A stretch of 64,000 bases of DNA from Sulfurimonadaceae bacterium. GTDB taxonomy: Bacteria > Campylobacterota > Campylobacteria > Campylobacterales > Sulfurimonadaceae. Within the stretch, counting starts at the first letter, position 1. Every line of letters begins with the position of its first letter. The notes under the pieces are model-generated. The model searched no databases. It was not told the origin of the DNA and was given only the letters and a program-made list of their open reading frames with translations. Position numbers and translations under genes: made by a program. The stretch is taken from the NCBI GenBank assembly GCA_016744905.1, contig JADGDM010000007.1:1-64000 (forward strand), written 5' to 3'. This document shows positions 4,917-29,674 of this stretch, piece by piece.

Positions 4917-7400
4917 TTATATTAATTTGCGCGTATCATTATCAATAAAATTAATAAAATCATTTTCATTGAGTGGTTTAGAAAAATGGTATCCTTGTCC
5001 ATATTTACAACCTTGTTGAGCGAGAAATTGCTCTTGTTCTATTGTCTCTATTCCTTCTGCTACATTATCATAACCCAGACTTTTTGAGAGGGCTAGAATG
5101 GCCTTTGTAATCGCTACGTCATTAAGGTCAGTTGGCAAATTATCAATAAAAGATTTATCAATTTTGATCATATCAATAGGGAATGTTTTAAGATAACTCA
5201 TAGATGAGTAGCCCGTTCCAAAGTCGTCAATGGAGATGGAATAACCCTGATTTTGAAGCTCTTGTAAAATTAGAAGGTTTTTATCATTATCTTGCATTAT
5301 ATATCGCTCAGTAATCTCAATTTCAATATCAGAGGCTTGTAAATCATAGCGCGCCAGTATGCTTGCAAATGTTTTTAAAAGTTTGGTGTCTTTAAATTGA
5401 TTGCTAGAGAGATTAATAGCAATGTATTTAATAGAGTGCCCTTGAGCACGAAGTTTAGACAGAAATTGACAAGATGCTTCAAATACAAAATAGCCAATTT
5501 CAATAATCAAACCACTGTTCTCAGCTAAAGGGATAAAAACATCTGGAGGTACCATTCCAAACTCTTGAGTGTTCCAGCGAACAAGTGCTTCTGCGGAGAT
5601 AATAGCTCTATCTTTTAGTGCGTACTGCGGTTGAAAATTAAGATAAAGTTCATTGTTCTCTAAGGCATTTTTGAGGGCATGTTCTAGTCGTAAGTTATGG
5701 GTGATTTTTTCATATAGTTTGGCATCATAAAAGGCAAAGGTGTCTTTTCCCGACTCTTTGGCTTTATACATGGCCGAGTCGGCAAACTTCAGTAAGTCAT
5801 CAAAATCATCAGTGTCATCAGGATAAAAAGAGATACCTATACTGGCAGAAGTGCTGAGTTCATGTTGGTCAATATGAAAAGGCTCTTTCAGTGCAACTAT
5901 GATTTTTTCAGATATTTGTGCAGCATTACTTTTATGTGCAATATCTTCTAAAACAATAACAAATTCATCTCCACCAATACGCGCTAACAGGTCTGTTTCT
6001 CGTAAAACTGCAGTGAGTCTTTGTGCGACTTCCAGTAGCAGTTTATCTCCAATATGATGTCCTAAAGTGTCATTGATATCTTTAAATCGATCAAGGTCAA
6101 TAAAAAGTAGTGCCATCTTCTGTTGATTTCGATGAGAAATTTTTAGGCTTTGTTTAAATTTCTCTTCAAAGCTGATACGATTATCAAGCCCCGTCAGACT
6201 ATCATGATAAGCGATGTGTTCAATTTTCTCTTGAGATTGCACAATCTCTCTAATATCTGTTTGTGTCGCAAAATAGTTCACTATTTGATTTTCATCATTG
6301 GTAATAGAAGAGATAGTCAGCCAGACAGGATAAAGCGTTCCATCTTGTTTTTTATTTTTGATTCGTCCTTGCCATTTCCCAGTCTTTTTTATCTCTTCCC
6401 ACATCTGTGCATAATAATGAGGACTATAGGAGTGTGATTGAAATATATTGGGTCTCTCTCCAATCATCTGCTTAGTAGTATAGCCTGTTAATATCTCAAG
6501 TGAGCGGTTGGCAAAAAGGATGCTAGACTCTGCATCAGTAATTAAAATTCCCTCTTGAGTATCTTTGAAAACTGAGGCATATAGATGGAGTATTTGAGAT
6601 GACTTTCTTGAATGATAGTGGGTATAAATAAGTATCAATAACATCAATAAAGAACCTATAAAAAAAAGTATAGTGATATATTGATTTTCTCTCATTTGTG
6701 TATGATAAATAGTATCCAATTTATTTTTTGCACTTGAAATTAAAGCATAAAGTTTGATGTTATTTAGTAGTTGTTTATTATCATGAAATTCTTGATTATA
6801 CGTGAGAAATTTTTTAAAATGTAAGACATAGAATTCTATATACTTATGTTCTGATTGAAGGGCATTGATACGCAGGTTAAGCGCTCTATTATTTAAGGGA
6901 ACATCGAGGCATAACTGCATGACTTCAAAGGTGAGATTTTCAATGACTTTTTTATTTTCAGCACGGATATTCTTAGTTTTTACGATATTTGACTTGAGAT
7001 CAAAGAGATAAGATAGAGAGTTGATAGAGGCAGAATTAATGGCTTTGTAGTCCTCTATTTGTAAGGATTTTTTTTGATACAATTGCGTAATATCTTCAAC
7101 AGTTGTTTCAAATTCTGTACTAAAATCACTGTGCATATTGAGTGTTTTTAGCTTATTGAGAGTGTCATCAAATTCTTGGATAAAAGATGCGATACTGTCG
7201 TAATTATTATAGGTATATTTTTGTAGTAAAAAATTGTCAAATTCCTTATCTAGAACTTTGAGTTTTTCCAGTTGTAGTGCATAATTTTCATAGGTGGTGA
7301 TTTTTTGATTCATTTTATAAAAATAGAAAATTATAACAATAGAAATTGAGAATAAAATAGTCAAAATAGTATAGGTAAAATCCAATTTTTTTAAAAGCAT
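4917..7400 (-). CDS. Membrane PAS-GGDEF-EAL protein (c-di-GMP turnover)
   Basis: The product has 827 residues. TM1 (about 10-28), a roughly 210-residue helical periplasmic sensor region and TM2 (about 245-262) are followed by PAS (about 275-390), GGDEF and EAL domains. Both enzyme signatures look intact: ARIGGDEFVIVLED for the cyclase and SAEALVRWN for the phosphodiesterase, with DDFGTGYSS and ETIEQ-type motifs downstream. It may therefore make or degrade c-di-GMP. Lying between the peroxidase gene and lapG-lapD, it is the obvious candidate to set the c-di-GMP level that LapD reads. Net activity cannot be predicted from sequence. Confidence 0.9.
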   Translation of the reverse strand: MLLKKLDFTYTILTILFSISIVIIFYFYKMNQKITTYENYALQLEKLKVLDKEFDNFLLQKYTYNNYDSIASFIQEFDDTLNKLKTLNMHSDFSTEFETTVEDITQLYQKKSLQIEDYKAINSASINSLSYLFDLKSNIVKTKNIRAENKKVIENLTFEVMQLCLDVPLNNRALNLRINALQSEHKYIEFYVLHFKKFLTYNQEFHDNKQLLNNIKLYALISSAKNKLDTIYHTQMRENQYITILFFIGSLLMLLILIYTHYHSRKSSQILHLYASVFKDTQEGILITDAESSILFANRSLEILTGYTTKQMIGERPNIFQSHSYSPHYYAQMWEEIKKTGKWQGRIKNKKQDGTLYPVWLTISSITNDENQIVNYFATQTDIREIVQSQEKIEHIAYHDSLTGLDNRISFEEKFKQSLKISHRNQQKMALLFIDLDRFKDINDTLGHHIGDKLLLEVAQRLTAVLRETDLLARIGGDEFVIVLEDIAHKSNAAQISEKIIVALKEPFHIDQHELSTSASIGISFYPDDTDDFDDLLKFADSAMYKAKESGKDTFAFYDAKLYEKITHNLRLEHALKNALENNELYLNFQPQYALKDRAIISAEALVRWNTQEFGMVPPDVFIPLAENSGLIIEIGYFVFEASCQFLSKLRAQGHSIKYIAINLSSNQFKDTKLLKTFASILARYDLQASDIEIEITERYIMQDNDKNLLILQELQNQGYSISIDDFGTGYSSMSYLKTFPIDMIKIDKSFIDNLPTDLNDVAITKAILALSKSLGYDNVAEGIETIEQEQFLAQQGCKYGQGYHFSKPLNENDFINFIDNDTRKLI

Positions 7401-24312: not shown

Positions 24313-25622
24313 AAATATTTAAACTCCATAAGTACTCCGCACTTTTAGCGGGAGTGCTTCTCTTTTTACTGGCAACTACAGGGCTGTTTTTAGACCATAA
24401 AAACTTCTCTTTTATGTATGACATCACTTTTGAAACCGACTCACAAAGTCTACTTAAAAAAGAGAACCGTCTTTTTGAATCGTTTTGGAACAATCCTGCA
24501 GATGCCAGCCATCAGATGAGTTGTGGGCACCGTGGGATTTTTGAGCAGACAAAAGAAGAGAGTAAAGAGATACTTGATATTCAGTGTATGTCTCTTCGAG
24601 ACTCCTCTAAAGGACTGTTTGCAGCGACTTCGGATGGTGTTTATATTTATGATGAAAATATATGGAAATCCTTTGCCCTTGGTGGTGAATATATCAATGC
24701 CCTTTCCTTAGATGACACATCACTTTTTGCAGTCATTGATAAACACAGTATTGTAGAGTTGGATTACACAGGTGCAGAAATTGTACGTCACGATAGAGTA
24801 AAGATAGACAGCGCGCTACTTAAAGAGGATATCAAACTCTCACGCTTCACTAGGGATATTCACTATGGACGGGGTCTTTTTGATGGGATTAGTTCACTGC
24901 TCATTAATGATTATAGTTCTGTGGTTTTGATTTTTTTAACACTCAGTGGGTATATCGCTTGGTACTTTATCAGGAAAAAGAAGCGCGCTCAGTTGGTTAG
25001 AAGTATCATCAAAATACATGCGAGTCTATTTTCTATTTTTGCTATTATCCCTTTACTCCTGTTGGCACTCAGTGGTATCTTGTTGGATCATTCAAAACTC
25101 TTAGGTTCATGGATGAAGTCGGTTAATCTCGAAAATGCTTACCTACCTCCCGTGTACAGAAGTTTAAGTGAAGACATCTGGTCGATAGATCATGACAAAG
25201 GTGTCTATTATATTGGAAATCGCTATGGGGTGTATGAGAGTTCTGATTTAAAACAGTGGGACTTTGCTTCAAAAGGTTTTGCCTATCGTATGAAACGTAT
25301 TGATGGGACATTGTATATAAGTGGAATGGGCGCGCCAAACAGAGTGAAAGTCGATGATAACTATCAGATGTTGAAGAAAAGCCCACACATGTTTAAAGAT
25401 ATATCCATAGAAAAAGAGAAAAATATCTTTCTAGCCCACCACAGTGATGTGCAGCTCCCAGAATTTACGAGTATCACACTTTATACGCTACTGCTTGCCT
25501 TGCATGATGGAACTTTTTTCGCCTCCTGGTGGGTTTGGATTAACGATATAGGCGCTGTATTATTGATGGTGATTCTATTTACAGGACTAGCGCGCTACAT
25601 GAAAAGAAAGAAAATTATTTAA
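24306..25622 (+). CDS. PepSY-like inner-membrane protein with duplicated TM-His unit
   Basis: The 438-residue product starts at a GTG within the receptor's last codons. Hydrophobic segments lie at about 11-29, 203-222, 240-262 and 413-430. The first and third share a motif: KLHKY followed about 20 residues on by TGLFLDHKN, and IKIHASL followed by SGILLDHSK. This looks like a duplicated PepSY-type helix with flanking histidines that could bind haem. The large periplasmic regions between have no signature I know. PepSY-type partners of TonB receptors commonly reduce imported ferric complexes, which is the most likely role here. Confidence 0.75.
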   Translation: MVKIFKLHKYSALLAGVLLFLLATTGLFLDHKNFSFMYDITFETDSQSLLKKENRLFESFWNNPADASHQMSCGHRGIFEQTKEESKEILDIQCMSLRDSSKGLFAATSDGVYIYDENIWKSFALGGEYINALSLDDTSLFAVIDKHSIVELDYTGAEIVRHDRVKIDSALLKEDIKLSRFTRDIHYGRGLFDGISSLLINDYSSVVLIFLTLSGYIAWYFIRKKKRAQLVRSIIKIHASLFSIFAIIPLLLLALSGILLDHSKLLGSWMKSVNLENAYLPPVYRSLSEDIWSIDHDKGVYYIGNRYGVYESSDLKQWDFASKGFAYRMKRIDGTLYISGMGAPNRVKVDDNYQMLKKSPHMFKDISIEKEKNIFLAHHSDVQLPEFTSITLYTLLLALHDGTFFASWWVWINDIGAVLLMVILFTGLARYMKRKKII

Positions 25623-26983
25623 GCCTTCGAAAGTATCTTAATAATTTTTAGTTTGAAGGCACTGTAGGGTGCGTATTTAATGGGAAACTCAAAAAAAGTA
25701 TTCTTTTTCAAGATACTTTTAAAATGTGAAAACTCATCAAAGCCAAACTTTCCATGATAGCTCCCCATACCACTCTCTCCCACACCACCAAAAGGGAGAT
25801 TTTCACTGGTTAAATGCATCACGGAGTCATTAATAGCACCTCCACCAAAAGAGAACTCTTGGATGATTTTATCACTGCATTTACTGTTTTGAGTGTAGAT
25901 ATAACAAGAAAGTGGTTTGGGTCGTGTTTTGAGCTCTTTGATGACATCATCTAAGTTATCAAAGCTGATGATAGGCAGCAAGGGGCCAAAAATTTCTTCT
26001 TGCATGATTTTGTCTTCAAAAGTCACATTGTCCAGTAGTGTTGGAGTTATTAGTCGTTTTTGAGGGTCTCTTTTATTTCCATAGATAACTTTTTCTTCCT
26101 CTATAAGGCTCTCTAAACGCTTAAAATTTCTCTCATTAATAATTTGAACATAGTTATCTTCAAGCTGTGAAAACTGTTTATCTATCTCTTTTTTGAGTGC
26201 TTGAACAAACTTCTCTTTGATGCAATCTTCAATCAAAAGATAATCAGGGGCGACGCAGGTTTGACCAGCGTTGAGAAACTTCGCCCAGACAATACGTTTG
26301 GCACTGATTGTAATATCTGCATCTTTAAGTATAAATGTGGGGCTTTTACCACCAAGTTCAAGAACAACGGGTGTGAGATATTTGGCGGCTGCTTGATAGA
26401 CTATGCGACCAACCATGGTGCTTCCAGTAAAAAATATCTTATCAAACTTCTCTTCTAGAATTTCAGTGGTGGTCTCAACGCCACCTTCGATAACACAAAA
26501 GTAGTGGCTATCAAAGTTCTCATTAATCAGTTTTGCCATGATGTTTGAGGTGTGTATAGAAATCTCACTGGGCTTGAGTATGACAGTGTTTCCTGCTGCT
26601 AAGGCGGTAATGACAGGAGCGAGTGAAAGTCCATAAGGGTAGTTCCAAGCACCGATAATTAAAACACTGCCTAAAGGTTCGCTATAAATATAACTCTTTG
26701 AAGGAAAGTTGAGCATATCTGAAGCCACCCTTTTAGGTTTTGCCCAAGAAGAGAGTTTTTTCAGTGCAACACTTATCTCATGATAGATAATACTCAGTTC
26801 AGTGGTATAGGTTTCAAATTCTGACTTTTGAAAATCACTGTAGATAGCAGTATAAAGAGCTGTTTCGTTCTCTTGAAGCAACTTTTCTAATCGTTTGAGT
26901 GCTTTTTTTCTGTATTGAATATCCTTGGTGATATTTGAGTTAAAAAACGCTCTTTGTTGATGTATGGTTGTTTTAATAGACAT
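25619..26983 (-). CDS. Aldehyde dehydrogenase (class 3-like)
   Basis: This 454-residue NAD(P)-dependent enzyme oxidises aldehydes to acids. The catalytic cysteine is Cys243 (AGQTCVAPDY) and the general base Glu209 (VVLELGGKSP). The nucleotide-binding ILKPSE and FTGSTMVGR motifs are present. The short N-terminus and a C-terminal extension with hydrophobic residues (FFEFPIKYAPYSAFKLKIIK) are typical of class 3 or fatty-aldehyde enzymes, so the substrate may be a medium- or long-chain aldehyde. It converges on the PepSY-like gene with a four-base overlap and is followed by no co-transcribed gene. Confidence 0.93.
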   Translation of the reverse strand: MSIKTTIHQQRAFFNSNITKDIQYRKKALKRLEKLLQENETALYTAIYSDFQKSEFETYTTELSIIYHEISVALKKLSSWAKPKRVASDMLNFPSKSYIYSEPLGSVLIIGAWNYPYGLSLAPVITALAAGNTVILKPSEISIHTSNIMAKLINENFDSHYFCVIEGGVETTTEILEEKFDKIFFTGSTMVGRIVYQAAAKYLTPVVLELGGKSPTFILKDADITISAKRIVWAKFLNAGQTCVAPDYLLIEDCIKEKFVQALKKEIDKQFSQLEDNYVQIINERNFKRLESLIEEEKVIYGNKRDPQKRLITPTLLDNVTFEDKIMQEEIFGPLLPIISFDNLDDVIKELKTRPKPLSCYIYTQNSKCSDKIIQEFSFGGGAINDSVMHLTSENLPFGGVGESGMGSYHGKFGFDEFSHFKSILKKNTFFEFPIKYAPYSAFKLKIIKILSKA

Positions 26984-27007: not shown

Positions 27008-27415
27008 TTAATATCGCATCTTGATGTTGAGTTGTGTATCTTTACTCACCTCAAACTGTGATTCTTCAAAATTGGCTGCACGAAAAGTTGGGCGGATGTT
27101 GTTGCTAAACCCATAACCCTCTTTAGGAATACCTAAAAAGTTTTTGTTTAAAACCTTGTCTTCATTTTCATCATGAAAGATGGAAAGTGCATAGGTTCCC
27201 TCAGGGATATCTTTAAAAACATAATGCATCTCACCGAGCTTGGCTTTTATCTCTTGTCCAATAAAGATACTCTCATATTCCCTAAAACCTTCTGGCTTAT
27301 TATAAAGACCTATAGAAATAAGGCCCGTATTATTTAAAACACCTGTAATTTTCACACTCAAATCAGCACTATAAAGTGAAGATAACAGCGCGCTTAGTAG
27401 TAGTAGATTTTTCAT
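27008..27415 (-). CDS. DUF2141 exported protein
   Basis: The 135-residue product has a signal peptide (about 1-16, ending LYSA) followed by a single DUF2141 domain: LSVKITGVLNNTGLISIGLY, then DIPEGTYALSIFHDEN and the GYGFSNN segment. Members are small periplasmic beta-sandwich proteins of unknown role. An AAGGAG ribosome site precedes the ATG. The gene is controlled by an NssR-like box at 27466-27479 that overlaps the last codons of the adjacent Crp/Fnr-family gene, so it is probably part of that regulator's regulon. Confidence 0.85.
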   Translation of the reverse strand: MKNLLLLSALLSSLYSADLSVKITGVLNNTGLISIGLYNKPEGFREYESIFIGQEIKAKLGEMHYVFKDIPEGTYALSIFHDENEDKVLNKNFLGIPKEGYGFSNNIRPTFRAANFEESQFEVSKDTQLNIKMRY

Positions 27416-27439
27416 AATTTCTCCTTGTTATAAAAGAAG

Positions 27440-27479
27440 TTTATATCATCTGAAAGGCTTTGTCATTCACTTAGGTTAA
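27440..27479 (-). promoter_or_regulatory. NssR-like box and -10 element upstream of the DUF2141 gene
   Basis: Reading toward the gene, TTAAC-CTAA-GTGAA (27479 down to 27466) lies about 30 bases from TATAAA (27445-27440), the spacing of a class II Crp/Fnr-type activator site. It differs by one base from TTAAC-N4-GTTAA. The 20 bases ATTAACCTAAGTGAATGACA recur upstream of 29582 with one difference. The box overlaps the 3' end of the Crp/Fnr gene. Confidence 0.65.
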
Positions 27480-28070
27480 TTTGAGTTTGGCTTTAAGACG
27501 ACTCAGCGATTGTGGTTCCATCCCCAACATCGAAGCGATATGGTACTGTGGGACTTTATTGAGAAGATATGGGGTCTCTTGCATAAATCTTTCAAATCTT
27601 GTTGTAGCATTGTCTTGCAAAGAGGAGAGAAAAAGGTTGTGAACATGAGTATAAGCGATCTCTGCCATTAACCTTCCAAAACGGTTTCCTTTTTTTTGAT
27701 AATTATAGAGAAACTGCACATCTTCGTAGGCAGTAGAAAAGAGCGTACAATCTTCCAAAACTTCAAAACTAAGAGATGAGGGTATTTGATTGCTAAAGCT
27801 ATTGTAATCAGTGACGTAGAGATTGGTCATTTTAGAATTCTCATCATTAAAAAAGATATGCCAAGTGATGTCTTTACCCACATCAGAGATGATGTAGGCA
27901 CGCACGATACCACTGTTTATAAAATGAAGGTCTCTCATTACATCTCCTGCGTAATGAACAATCTCCCCTTTTTTATAATGCGTAACCTTGAGTTTGGTTT
28001 TAAAGACATTCCACTCTATGAGATTAAAAGAGATATATTGATCCATAAAGGTTTTATAATTTTCGTACAT
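27471..28070 (-). CDS. Crp/Fnr-family transcriptional regulator
   Basis: This 199-residue regulator has a cyclic-nucleotide-type beta-barrel (about 25-120, YKKGEIVHYAGDVMRDLHFINSG), a dimer helix and a C-terminal helix-turn-helix (HIASMLGMEPQSLSRLK). It lacks the N-terminal cysteine cluster of oxygen-sensing FNR. In Campylobacter jejuni the family member NssR controls nitrosative-stress genes through TTAAC-N4-GTTAA. The two flanking genes here both carry such boxes, which suggests an NssR-like local regulon. The signal (NO or other) is inference. Confidence 0.87.
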   Translation of the reverse strand: MYENYKTFMDQYISFNLIEWNVFKTKLKVTHYKKGEIVHYAGDVMRDLHFINSGIVRAYIISDVGKDITWHIFFNDENSKMTNLYVTDYNSFSNQIPSSLSFEVLEDCTLFSTAYEDVQFLYNYQKKGNRFGRLMAEIAYTHVHNLFLSSLQDNATTRFERFMQETPYLLNKVPQYHIASMLGMEPQSLSRLKAKLKLT

Positions 28071-28091
28071 ATTTAATTATAGTGTAATATC

Positions 28092-29582
28092 TTATAATTT
28101 TGGCACAGCGCGCAAGTAGGCCTTTTTAGCATCAAGTGTTGCCCAAAAGTTGTCAGCTTGTTTTTGAAATGTTTTATTTGTTATGCCTGTGTTAGAGACT
28201 GAGGCCATTAAAGAGAAGTCGATTTTCCCCTCCTGAACGACTTGTATGCCGGCTTTATAACAGACCTCTTTGACACTTTCTCGTCTGTTTTTGTAGATAG
28301 GTTGGGCTAAGACTTCTGCGGCGGTGAGAAAAAACTCTCCCATGAGATGGGTGTTTTCATTATGTGAATCCCACGCTCTATACATTCCTTTAAGACCATC
28401 AAAATTATTGTCCACATCAGGAAAACCAGCAGCACTAAAGACCACAAAACCCTGTTCTCCACGCTCTGGGTATCGATCTGGATGAGAGATATGCCCTTGC
28501 TCATCAAGTAACATATAGGGCTCTAAGATAGGGAGTAGTCTGTCCATAAAACTTTTCATAATACCTGTGACATTAAAGATAAACAGGGGTGAGGCAAAAA
28601 CAATAAGATCTGCATTTCTGTACTTTTCACGTAACTCAGTCATAGAATCTTTATGTACACACTCTCCTGGCGTTTTACTCCAGCAGGTATAACAGCCATC
28701 ACACAGGGAAATGTCTAATTCACTGAGTTTAAAACTCTCGACATTGGCACCTTGAGTGATGGCGCCACGGATAAATTCATCAACCATCAAGGTAGTTTTA
28801 CTGAGCTTTTTATTGCGCATGCCTCCATCAAAAACCACAATATTTTTAATTTTTTTAGAGTGAATGGTTTTATAGTTATAGTCTTGTATCCGCTCAACAC
28901 CTTCCTCTTCTAGCGCGCTGGCATCAAAGAGCTTTTCAAACTTTTGCATGATCGAAGCATCACCTTCGAGGGTATATTTTTTAGTCAAAAAGGCATCTGT
29001 GCCATCAACATCACCATTGGTGATATCTAACCAGAGTTTTGAATCTGCGGTGATGATGAGTGTTGGATCACTATGGCCGCCTTGATGTTGGGTACAGACC
29101 TGATCTTTGATGATAAGATGACGTACTCCTGCTTCTTCTCCACTAAGATCAAACTGCACCACAACATCTACATCACGCGCCATCTCTTTGTTGAGACCAT
29201 AAGGCATCGATTCAAAGGCATCTTTAATCGTATCAAAATGTAAACGTGCGCTGGGTGATTTCATCATGATTTTTGGTAAAAATACAGAGAGTGGAATCCC
29301 GATAAGTATCTGTGGTAAAAAAGCGACACCATTGGAGAGTAAAATATTTTCTGCACTGTAGGGTGAAAATTTTATCTGTACAAGTAAAAAAGCAAGTGCA
29401 AAAAGTCCAGCCCAGATAAAACTCAGACGGCGATTGATTTTTAAAAAGATCTCACTTTGAATGATTGCAGAGCTATATGCCCCTTTTGAGACATAATAGG
29501 TAAAAGGTTTTTTACCTAAAAGAGGAGGGATAAACGCCATTAAAAAAAGTAGAGTGTAGATAGTTATTGAGATTATTTCCAT
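28092..29582 (-). CDS. Membrane-anchored SCP2-like domain fused to a flavodoxin-fold reductase
   Basis: The 496-residue product combines three parts. Residues about 1-110 hold three hydrophobic helices. Residues about 115-225 resemble an SCP2 sterol/lipid-carrier domain (DPTLIITADSKLWLDITNGDVDG). Residues about 240-400 form an NADPH-dependent FMN-reductase or flavodoxin-like domain (IVVFDGGMRNKKLSKT, CDGCYTCWSKTPGECVHKD, FASPLFIFNVTGIMKSFMDR). The CxxC-rich segment resembles iron-sulfur flavoproteins. Lipid-carrier plus flavin domains on one membrane protein suggests reduction of a lipophilic substrate such as a quinone. It is driven from an NssR-like promoter. Confidence 0.75.
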   Translation of the reverse strand: MEIISITIYTLLFLMAFIPPLLGKKPFTYYVSKGAYSSAIIQSEIFLKINRRLSFIWAGLFALAFLLVQIKFSPYSAENILLSNGVAFLPQILIGIPLSVFLPKIMMKSPSARLHFDTIKDAFESMPYGLNKEMARDVDVVVQFDLSGEEAGVRHLIIKDQVCTQHQGGHSDPTLIITADSKLWLDITNGDVDGTDAFLTKKYTLEGDASIMQKFEKLFDASALEEEGVERIQDYNYKTIHSKKIKNIVVFDGGMRNKKLSKTTLMVDEFIRGAITQGANVESFKLSELDISLCDGCYTCWSKTPGECVHKDSMTELREKYRNADLIVFASPLFIFNVTGIMKSFMDRLLPILEPYMLLDEQGHISHPDRYPERGEQGFVVFSAAGFPDVDNNFDGLKGMYRAWDSHNENTHLMGEFFLTAAEVLAQPIYKNRRESVKEVCYKAGIQVVQEGKIDFSLMASVSNTGITNKTFQKQADNFWATLDAKKAYLRAVPKL

Positions 29583-29606
29583 AGGAGATTCCTTCGTGTT
29601 TAAAGA

Positions 29607-29649
29607 AGTATATGAAAATATCTAATGTTCTGTCATTCACATAGGTTAA
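29607..29649 (-). promoter_or_regulatory. NssR-like box and -10 element upstream of the SCP2-flavodoxin gene
   Basis: TTAAC-CTAT-GTGAA reads on the minus strand from 29649 to 29636, about 33 bases ahead of TATACT (29612-29607). The surrounding ATTAACCTATGTGAATGACA matches the box at 27460-27480 at 19 of 20 positions, and the similarity continues patchily to CTTC after the -10. The two boxes lie on either side of the Crp/Fnr gene. Confidence 0.65.
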
Positions 29650-29674
29650 TTAATATGCAGAACTTTTGTAGCAA

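Follow-up and report, generated by a model that had tools for sequence, protein, structure and literature searches.

A predicted two-promoter circuit around a Crp/Fnr-type regulator whose gene ends within its putative operator

The window, the whole 64 kb stretch of Sulfurimonadaceae DNA analysed here, carries two copies of the 19-base element TTAACCTA(A/T)GTGAATGACA in the neighbourhood of a gene for a Crp/Fnr-type regulator. Which protein reads these boxes, whether it switches the genes behind them on or off, and what signal it answers to are the questions that the locus raises.

Two boxes and the predicted promoters beneath them

On the minus strand, box 2 is followed by the SCP2-flavodoxin gene, the regulator gene, whose last codons lie within box 1, the DUF2141 gene and an aldehyde dehydrogenase gene (Table 1). 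An earlier note on this DNA had placed the boxes upstream of the DUF2141 and SCP2-flavodoxin genes and over the final codons of the regulator, and had named the domains of the two neighbours. All of this was borne out: both boxes are exact, the first covers Leu198, Thr199 and the stop codon, and Pfam domains were found for DUF2141, SCP2 and FMN-reductase/flavodoxin. NCBIfam gave no match for the regulator, the DUF2141 protein or the SCP2-flavodoxin. For the 20-mer boxes, shuffles of the 64 kb predict 0.02 matches with 3 or fewer mismatches, and 0/100 reached two, confirming that the two boxes are genuine. The aldehyde dehydrogenase possibly shares the DUF2141 transcript, and the same order of these two genes was also seen in another genome (G016). 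Box 2 may drive the regulator too, because only 21 bases part the SCP2-flavodoxin stop from the regulator start.

Table 1. Features of the locus, with positions in the window and the basis of each assignment.
Feature	Position	Strand	Basis
Aldehyde dehydrogenase, next after DUF2141	25619..26983	-	PF00171, E 1e-85
DUF2141 protein, 135 aa, predicted target 1	27008..27415	-	PF09912, E 2e-32
-10-like TAAACT, predicted DUF2141 promoter, 17 bases past ATGACA	27438..27443	-	Comparative data
-35-like ATGACA, predicted DUF2141 promoter	27461..27466	-	Grammar of non-redundant relatives
Box 1 as 20-mer ATTAACCTAAGTGAATGACA	27461-27480	-	Exact match
Box 1, 14-mer TTAACCTAAGTGAA	27466..27479	-	Exact match; conserved at orthologous stop codons
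Crp/Fnr-type regulator, 199 aa	27471..28070	-	Pfam cNMP_binding, E 5e-7
SCP2 + FMN-reductase/flavodoxin protein, 496 aa, hydrophobic N-terminal part, predicted target 2	28092..29582	-	PF02036, PF03358, PF02525
-10-like TATACT, predicted SCP2-flavodoxin promoter, 18 bases past ATGACA	29607..29612	-	Sequence; spacers of relatives
-35-like ATGACA, predicted SCP2-flavodoxin promoter	29631..29636	-	Sequence; grammar of relatives
Box 2 as 20-mer ATTAACCTATGTGAATGACA	29631-29650	-	Exact match
Box 2, 14-mer TTAACCTATGTGAA, upstream of SCP2-flavodoxin	29636..29649	-	Exact match; L046 and L086 carry the exact box there

Across the genome (3.0 Mb), the 19-base element occurs only at boxes 1 and 2: a pattern search with TKMACNNANGTGAATGACA returned these 2 exact matches and 0 more at 1 mismatch. 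The genome-wide box search suggested earlier thus singled out two sites with the 19-mer, whereas the shorter forms stayed at chance level (7 bare 14-mers at 1 mismatch in the window against 7.2 expected; 42 palindromes genome-wide against 48 for the reversed control). The box signal sits in the 19-mer, not in the bare 14-mer. At up to 3 mismatches the 19-mer, too, fell to chance level (105 matches genome-wide against 106 for the reversed control). Additional regulon members at 2-3 mismatches were rejected on such control-level counts, a GTTAA-type candidate on contig C92 lying inside a kinase gene. Exact 14-mers on C75, C102 and C26 were left uncounted because the TGACA tail is absent.

Past the box, orthologous loci have ATGACA and, after a spacer of 17-18 bases, a TATAAT-like -10; the box typically lies ~50 bp from the gene behind it. 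Among non-redundant relatives, ATGA was invariant (38/38), while the C was kept in 36/38 and the last A in 33/38. The spacer to the -10 measured 17 bases in 29/38 promoters and 18 in 7/38, making 36/38 together. The conservation of TGACA on one side suggests contact with RNA polymerase, as a -35 element, rather than with a symmetric dimer. Deduced from the -10 spacing, the box centres would lie at ~-41.5 (DUF2141) and ~-42.5 (SCP2-flavodoxin), the predicted position of a class II Crp/Fnr site overlapping the -35. The -10 elements had previously been put 30 and 33 bases from the boxes; the class II spacing holds, but the distances differ, the elements now being TAAACT and TATACT, 17 and 18 bases past ATGACA.

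We consider it probable that a local Crp/Fnr dimer is the class II activator of these two promoters and that they constitute its regulon. The dimer would bind TTAAC-N4-GTGAA via its recognition helix, with Gln187 (the equivalent of CRP 181) reading bases, and from ~-41.5 would activate two sigma70-type promoters. Promoter 1, which overlaps the regulator stop, would drive DUF2141 and probably the aldehyde dehydrogenase; promoter 2 would drive SCP2-flavodoxin and, by read-through, the regulator, resulting in positive autoregulation. In this genome, the predicted regulon would comprise the two promoters only. Repression is the strongest mechanistic rival, because ATGACA (5/6 of TTGACA) and a TATAAT-like -10, 17-18 bases apart, amount to a near-consensus, nearly complete promoter under the box. 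The dimer would then cover the -35 of a self-sufficient sigma70 promoter and block RNA polymerase until a ligand released it. Efflux and exporter genes, which occur among the relatives' targets, are often derepressed by their substrate, a further point for repression. However, a centre at ~-41.5 with tight spacing is the position of a class II activator, and the same layout is found in an NssR-type cgb promoter and an HcpR-hcp promoter of the same phylum, NssR being an activator (PMC1274295). On balance, repression appears unlikely.

Linkage between the box and the regulator

A family profile identified 16 close orthologues (E below 1e-80) in 397 Campylobacterota genomes. From GTDB genomes, a scan recovered ~43 orthologous loci together with their flanks, 2 of them in Marithrix (Gammaproteobacteria) and 1 in Ghiorsea; in the scan of genome contigs, the alignment query returned 71 loci and the single-protein query 0. 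The element lies at the regulator stop codon in most of ~40 orthologous loci. At up to 2 mismatches and between -15 and +130 of the stop, a box was found at 28/43 regulator genes compared to 2/328 other genes of the same loci, and both exceptions are genuine sites (one is the box before SCP2-flavodoxin in L086, the other lies in L127, where the regulator is partly masked). Of the 8 genomes of the phylum in which an exact site occurs, 7 encode an orthologue (Fisher p=3e-10); with one mismatch allowed, orthologues occur in 11/55 genomes with a site and in 5/342 without (p=4e-7), these p-values overstating independence because genomes share ancestry. Linkage of orthologues to the motif, named beforehand as a point on which the proposal could fail, was thus found, and it was found among regulators only 35-68% identical, with varying spacers between box and gene. 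Counting against the circuit, about one third of the orthologues are without a recognisable box at the 3' end. In other loci, a search of the 300 bp ahead of the regulator for an autoregulatory box found 0 at up to 3 mismatches.

In the tree, close proteobacterial relatives of the regulator from Marithrix (L087, L088) and Ghiorsea (L124) stand inside the Campylobacterota, and horizontal transfer is probable. One genome (G056) holds two regulator-box-DUF2141-CrtI cassettes (L047 and L048).

Boxes also occur away from the regulator. The sole site in the Marithrix BB16 genome is 51 bp ahead of DUF2141 and far from the regulator (64% identical), and in Thiovulum, where the regulator is unlinked, a distal box precedes DUF2141. 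Other distal sites precede a CrtI-like gene in Sulfurimonas STC_122 and a TolC-like gene in Sulfuricurvum STA_65. In all, many orthologous loci have a box before DUF2141, as do three sites at which no regulator adjoins. In G413, an exact box (L258, contig C22) precedes DUF2141, a gene for a 169 aa protein and SCP2-flavodoxin. No orthologue was detected in this 97% complete genome, which counts against the circuit; a lost regulator, an assembly gap or another regulator are candidate readings. SCP2-flavodoxin co-occurs with DUF2141 in L086, L092, L122 and L258, and carries a box of its own ahead of the regulator (window, L086) but none behind DUF2141 (L092, L258).

The window genome encodes several further Crp/Fnr-like proteins, one of which might read the boxes, the neighbouring regulator being coincidental. 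The phylum-wide linkage of orthologue and box, the sites in trans in other genomes and the covariation of the box with the regulator's own helix, described below, make this extremely improbable. Taken together with the fixed -35/-10 spacing, the same three lines of evidence suggest that both boxes very probably belong to this regulator and have class II geometry. To that extent, they uphold the earlier proposal that this Crp/Fnr protein activates both genes, and the choice of activation over repression is one that we infer. Collectively, these results support, at the level of sequence, a narrow two-promoter control circuit.

Recognition helix, stop-codon overlap and target genes

Pfam, AlphaFold2 and Foldseek identified in the regulator the cNMP-type beta-roll, the long dimer helix and the HTH of the Crp/Fnr superfamily. 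The protein ends just past the recognition helix (P186-Q187-S-L-S-R) and has no C-terminal wing; likewise, the AlphaFold2 model (pLDDT 93) ends without a wing after its last helix (186-195). Pro186 and Gln187 correspond to positions 180/181 in CRP numbering. The nearest solved sequence is 3dn7, a cyclic-nucleotide-binding regulatory protein of Cytophaga hutchinsonii (E 1e-35 with the family profile), whose entry title states no function. Cys-based redox sensing was rejected as a family trait, since neither Cys108 (29/41 members) nor a Cys at 45 (23/41; Met in the window) is invariant.

Where the recognition helix begins with Pro-Gln, the box is TTMAC-N4-GTKAA. Exact TTGAT-N4-ATCAA was found with seven Glu regulators and with no non-Glu regulator; 17/25 Glu proteins show no box, and the Glu-box cases are not independent because they are mostly from related Bacteroidota or Ignavibacteria. 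Two further subfamilies, (Glu/Asp)-Val-Ala-Leu-Ser-Arg with TTAAC-N4-GTTAA and Pro-Thr-Gln-Leu-Ser-Arg with TCAAC-N4-GTAAA, mostly carry TGACA at the same spacing. The sister genes L092 and L095 (support 95/85 in the tree) have switched between Gln/TTAAC and Glu/TTGAT, while their targets are of one kind. L092 has Gln and the box TTAACATTTGTGAATGACTT (TTAAC...GTGAA) before DUF2141, while L095 has Glu and, at its stop codon (5580-5680), the FNR-type box TTGATATATATCAATGACA before CrtI-like and DUF2141 genes. Residues 180/181 determine the operator of CRP/FNR proteins (Rodionov et al. 2005, PMC1274295), and the covariation of helix and box observed here follows that established code. New here are further residue/box pairs and the switch within a pair of sister orthologues whose targets are alike in kind, a directly testable natural experiment for the Crp/Fnr recognition code.

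Six Glu relatives from Bacteroidota/Ignavibacteria (L136, L140, L143, L147, L149, L152) have TTGAT-N4-ATCAA less than ~80 bases from the stop, and the next gene in L143 encodes a metallo-beta-lactamase-fold protein, with a similar one in L152. At the 3' ends of four Pro-Thr-Gln-Leu-Ser-Arg genes (L077, L084, L085, L080), TCAAC-N4-GTAAATGACA or a similar box precedes EamA/YdcZ exporter genes.

In 34/38 non-redundant cases, the box starts at -14, -11, -10, -6, -1 or 0 from the stop codon. The overlap is therefore conserved as DNA and not as a C-terminal peptide, because the registers span all three reading frames. Regulator and operator might form a portable cassette of ~0.65 kb, a reading that we put forward tentatively: the operator sits at the regulator stop in at least six registers and all three frames, the unit would have come to precede different genes, and helix and operator would change specificity together. 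Genes adjacent to the cassette include DUF2141, CrtI-like, SCP2-flavodoxin, TolC/RND, MMPL and DUF2834, and those of related subfamilies include EamA exporters, acetyltransferase-like and metallo-beta-lactamase-fold genes. How local regulators travel and gain targets is a testable question posed by the overlap of operator and stop across frames.

The families counted in orthologous loci were DUF2141 (15), CrtI/CrtISO-like flavoproteins (15), TolC-MFP-RND (4) and SCP2-flavodoxin (3), together with DUF2834 with a methylguanine-DNA methyltransferase, MMPL with a LolA-like protein, and a DUF4442/thioesterase-like protein. Related subfamilies carry EamA/YdcZ exporters, a flavodoxin_2 oxidoreductase, a metallo-beta-lactamase-fold protein and acetyltransferase-like proteins, the last labelled by eye; L075 is without a Pfam match. 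With the labels used, the tree implies 17 cargo changes; the shortness of some contigs and the mixed label 'other' place this figure at the upper end. A theme shared by these targets may be the handling of toxic or lipophilic small molecules and of membrane lipids. Because the targets of relatives are CrtI-like flavoproteins, SCP2, thioesterase-like proteins, efflux systems and exporters, membrane-lipid stress, or a small molecule that is toxic or lipophilic, is loosely favoured over nitric oxide as the signal, although this is a step that could well prove wrong. In Sphingomonadales, DUF2141 has been reported next to the carotenoid gene crtG (PMC5989583); the literature searched here contained no paper naming both Crp Fnr and DUF2141. 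An uncharacterised regulator family thus gains a concrete predicted operator, promoter layout and target list, and DUF2141, which has no known function, gains a predicted regulator and a recurring partner, the CrtI-like flavoprotein.

Comparison with NssR, FNR and HcpR

The Campylobacter jejuni regulator of the Cgb/Ctb regulon, NssR, is a Crp/Fnr superfamily member that resembles the window regulator in its type of box, TTAAC-N4-GTTAA, and in Gln181. The likeness of the boxes to those of NssR that was noted earlier stands: the two agree at 9/10 positions, the right half being GTGAA in the window and GTTAA in some orthologues. In a cgb-type promoter (L206, G239:C1:423669-423687), TTAACTAATGTTAATGACA, that is TTAAC-N4-GTTAATGACA, is found 51 bp ahead of a single-domain haemoglobin gene of the cgb type and shares the TGACA tail and spacing with the window boxes. 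NssR is reported to have Ala180 and Gln181 and to activate the cgb-class promoter (PMC1274295), whereas the window regulator has Pro at the first of these positions.

The same likeness invites the reading that the regulator works as NssR does, sensing nitric oxide, with its two genes as a nitrosative-stress regulon. The box is one base off TTAAC-N4-GTTAA, Gln is at position 181 as in NssR (PMC1274295), and His144 in the long helix, present in 33/41 family members, falls roughly at His149 of HcpR, which leaves room for haem binding; HcpR residues His149 and Met68 are described in PMC12750200. However, no conserved Met was found around the HcpR Met68 region, and no globin, hcp, NO-reductase or other NO-detoxification gene was found behind any box near an orthologue. 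Neither of the genome's two sites adjoins a globin, as a haemoglobin (cgb/ctb) target would require, and a search of the window genome for truncated globins (PF01152) found none. No Crp/Fnr gene, sought to locate NssR, was found beside PF01152 globins. The regulator is 22-23% identical to the two Crp/Fnr proteins of G239 that are NssR candidates, one of which has the helix Ala-Glu, unlike the reported Ala-Gln, and on comparison with these candidates it was rejected as an NssR orthologue. An NssR-like role is thus very unlikely and the response is probably not to nitric oxide, so the suggestion of nitrosative stress in the earlier note is not upheld.

FNR resembles the regulator in fold (Foldseek E 4e-11), and its box, TTGAT-N4-ATCAA, is that of the family's Glu relatives. 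In contrast, the window regulator is without the N-terminal cysteine cluster, has Gln at the base-reading position and is paired with TTAAC-N4-GTGAA; FNR identity was rejected on the differing box and the lack of conserved N-terminal Cys.

HcpR is likewise a local Crp/Fnr regulator, and an HcpR-like protein of G058 is ~24% identical to the window regulator. HcpR differs in its longer C-terminal part past the recognition helix and in its target, hcp; the window boxes precede DUF2141 and SCP2-flavodoxin, and HcpR identity was rejected. In G058 (L208, contig C48), TTAACCTATGTTAATGACA lies immediately ahead of hcp, at the stop codon of the HcpR-like gene itself. As judged from these sequences, the operator-at-stop layout reaches beyond the family of the window regulator.
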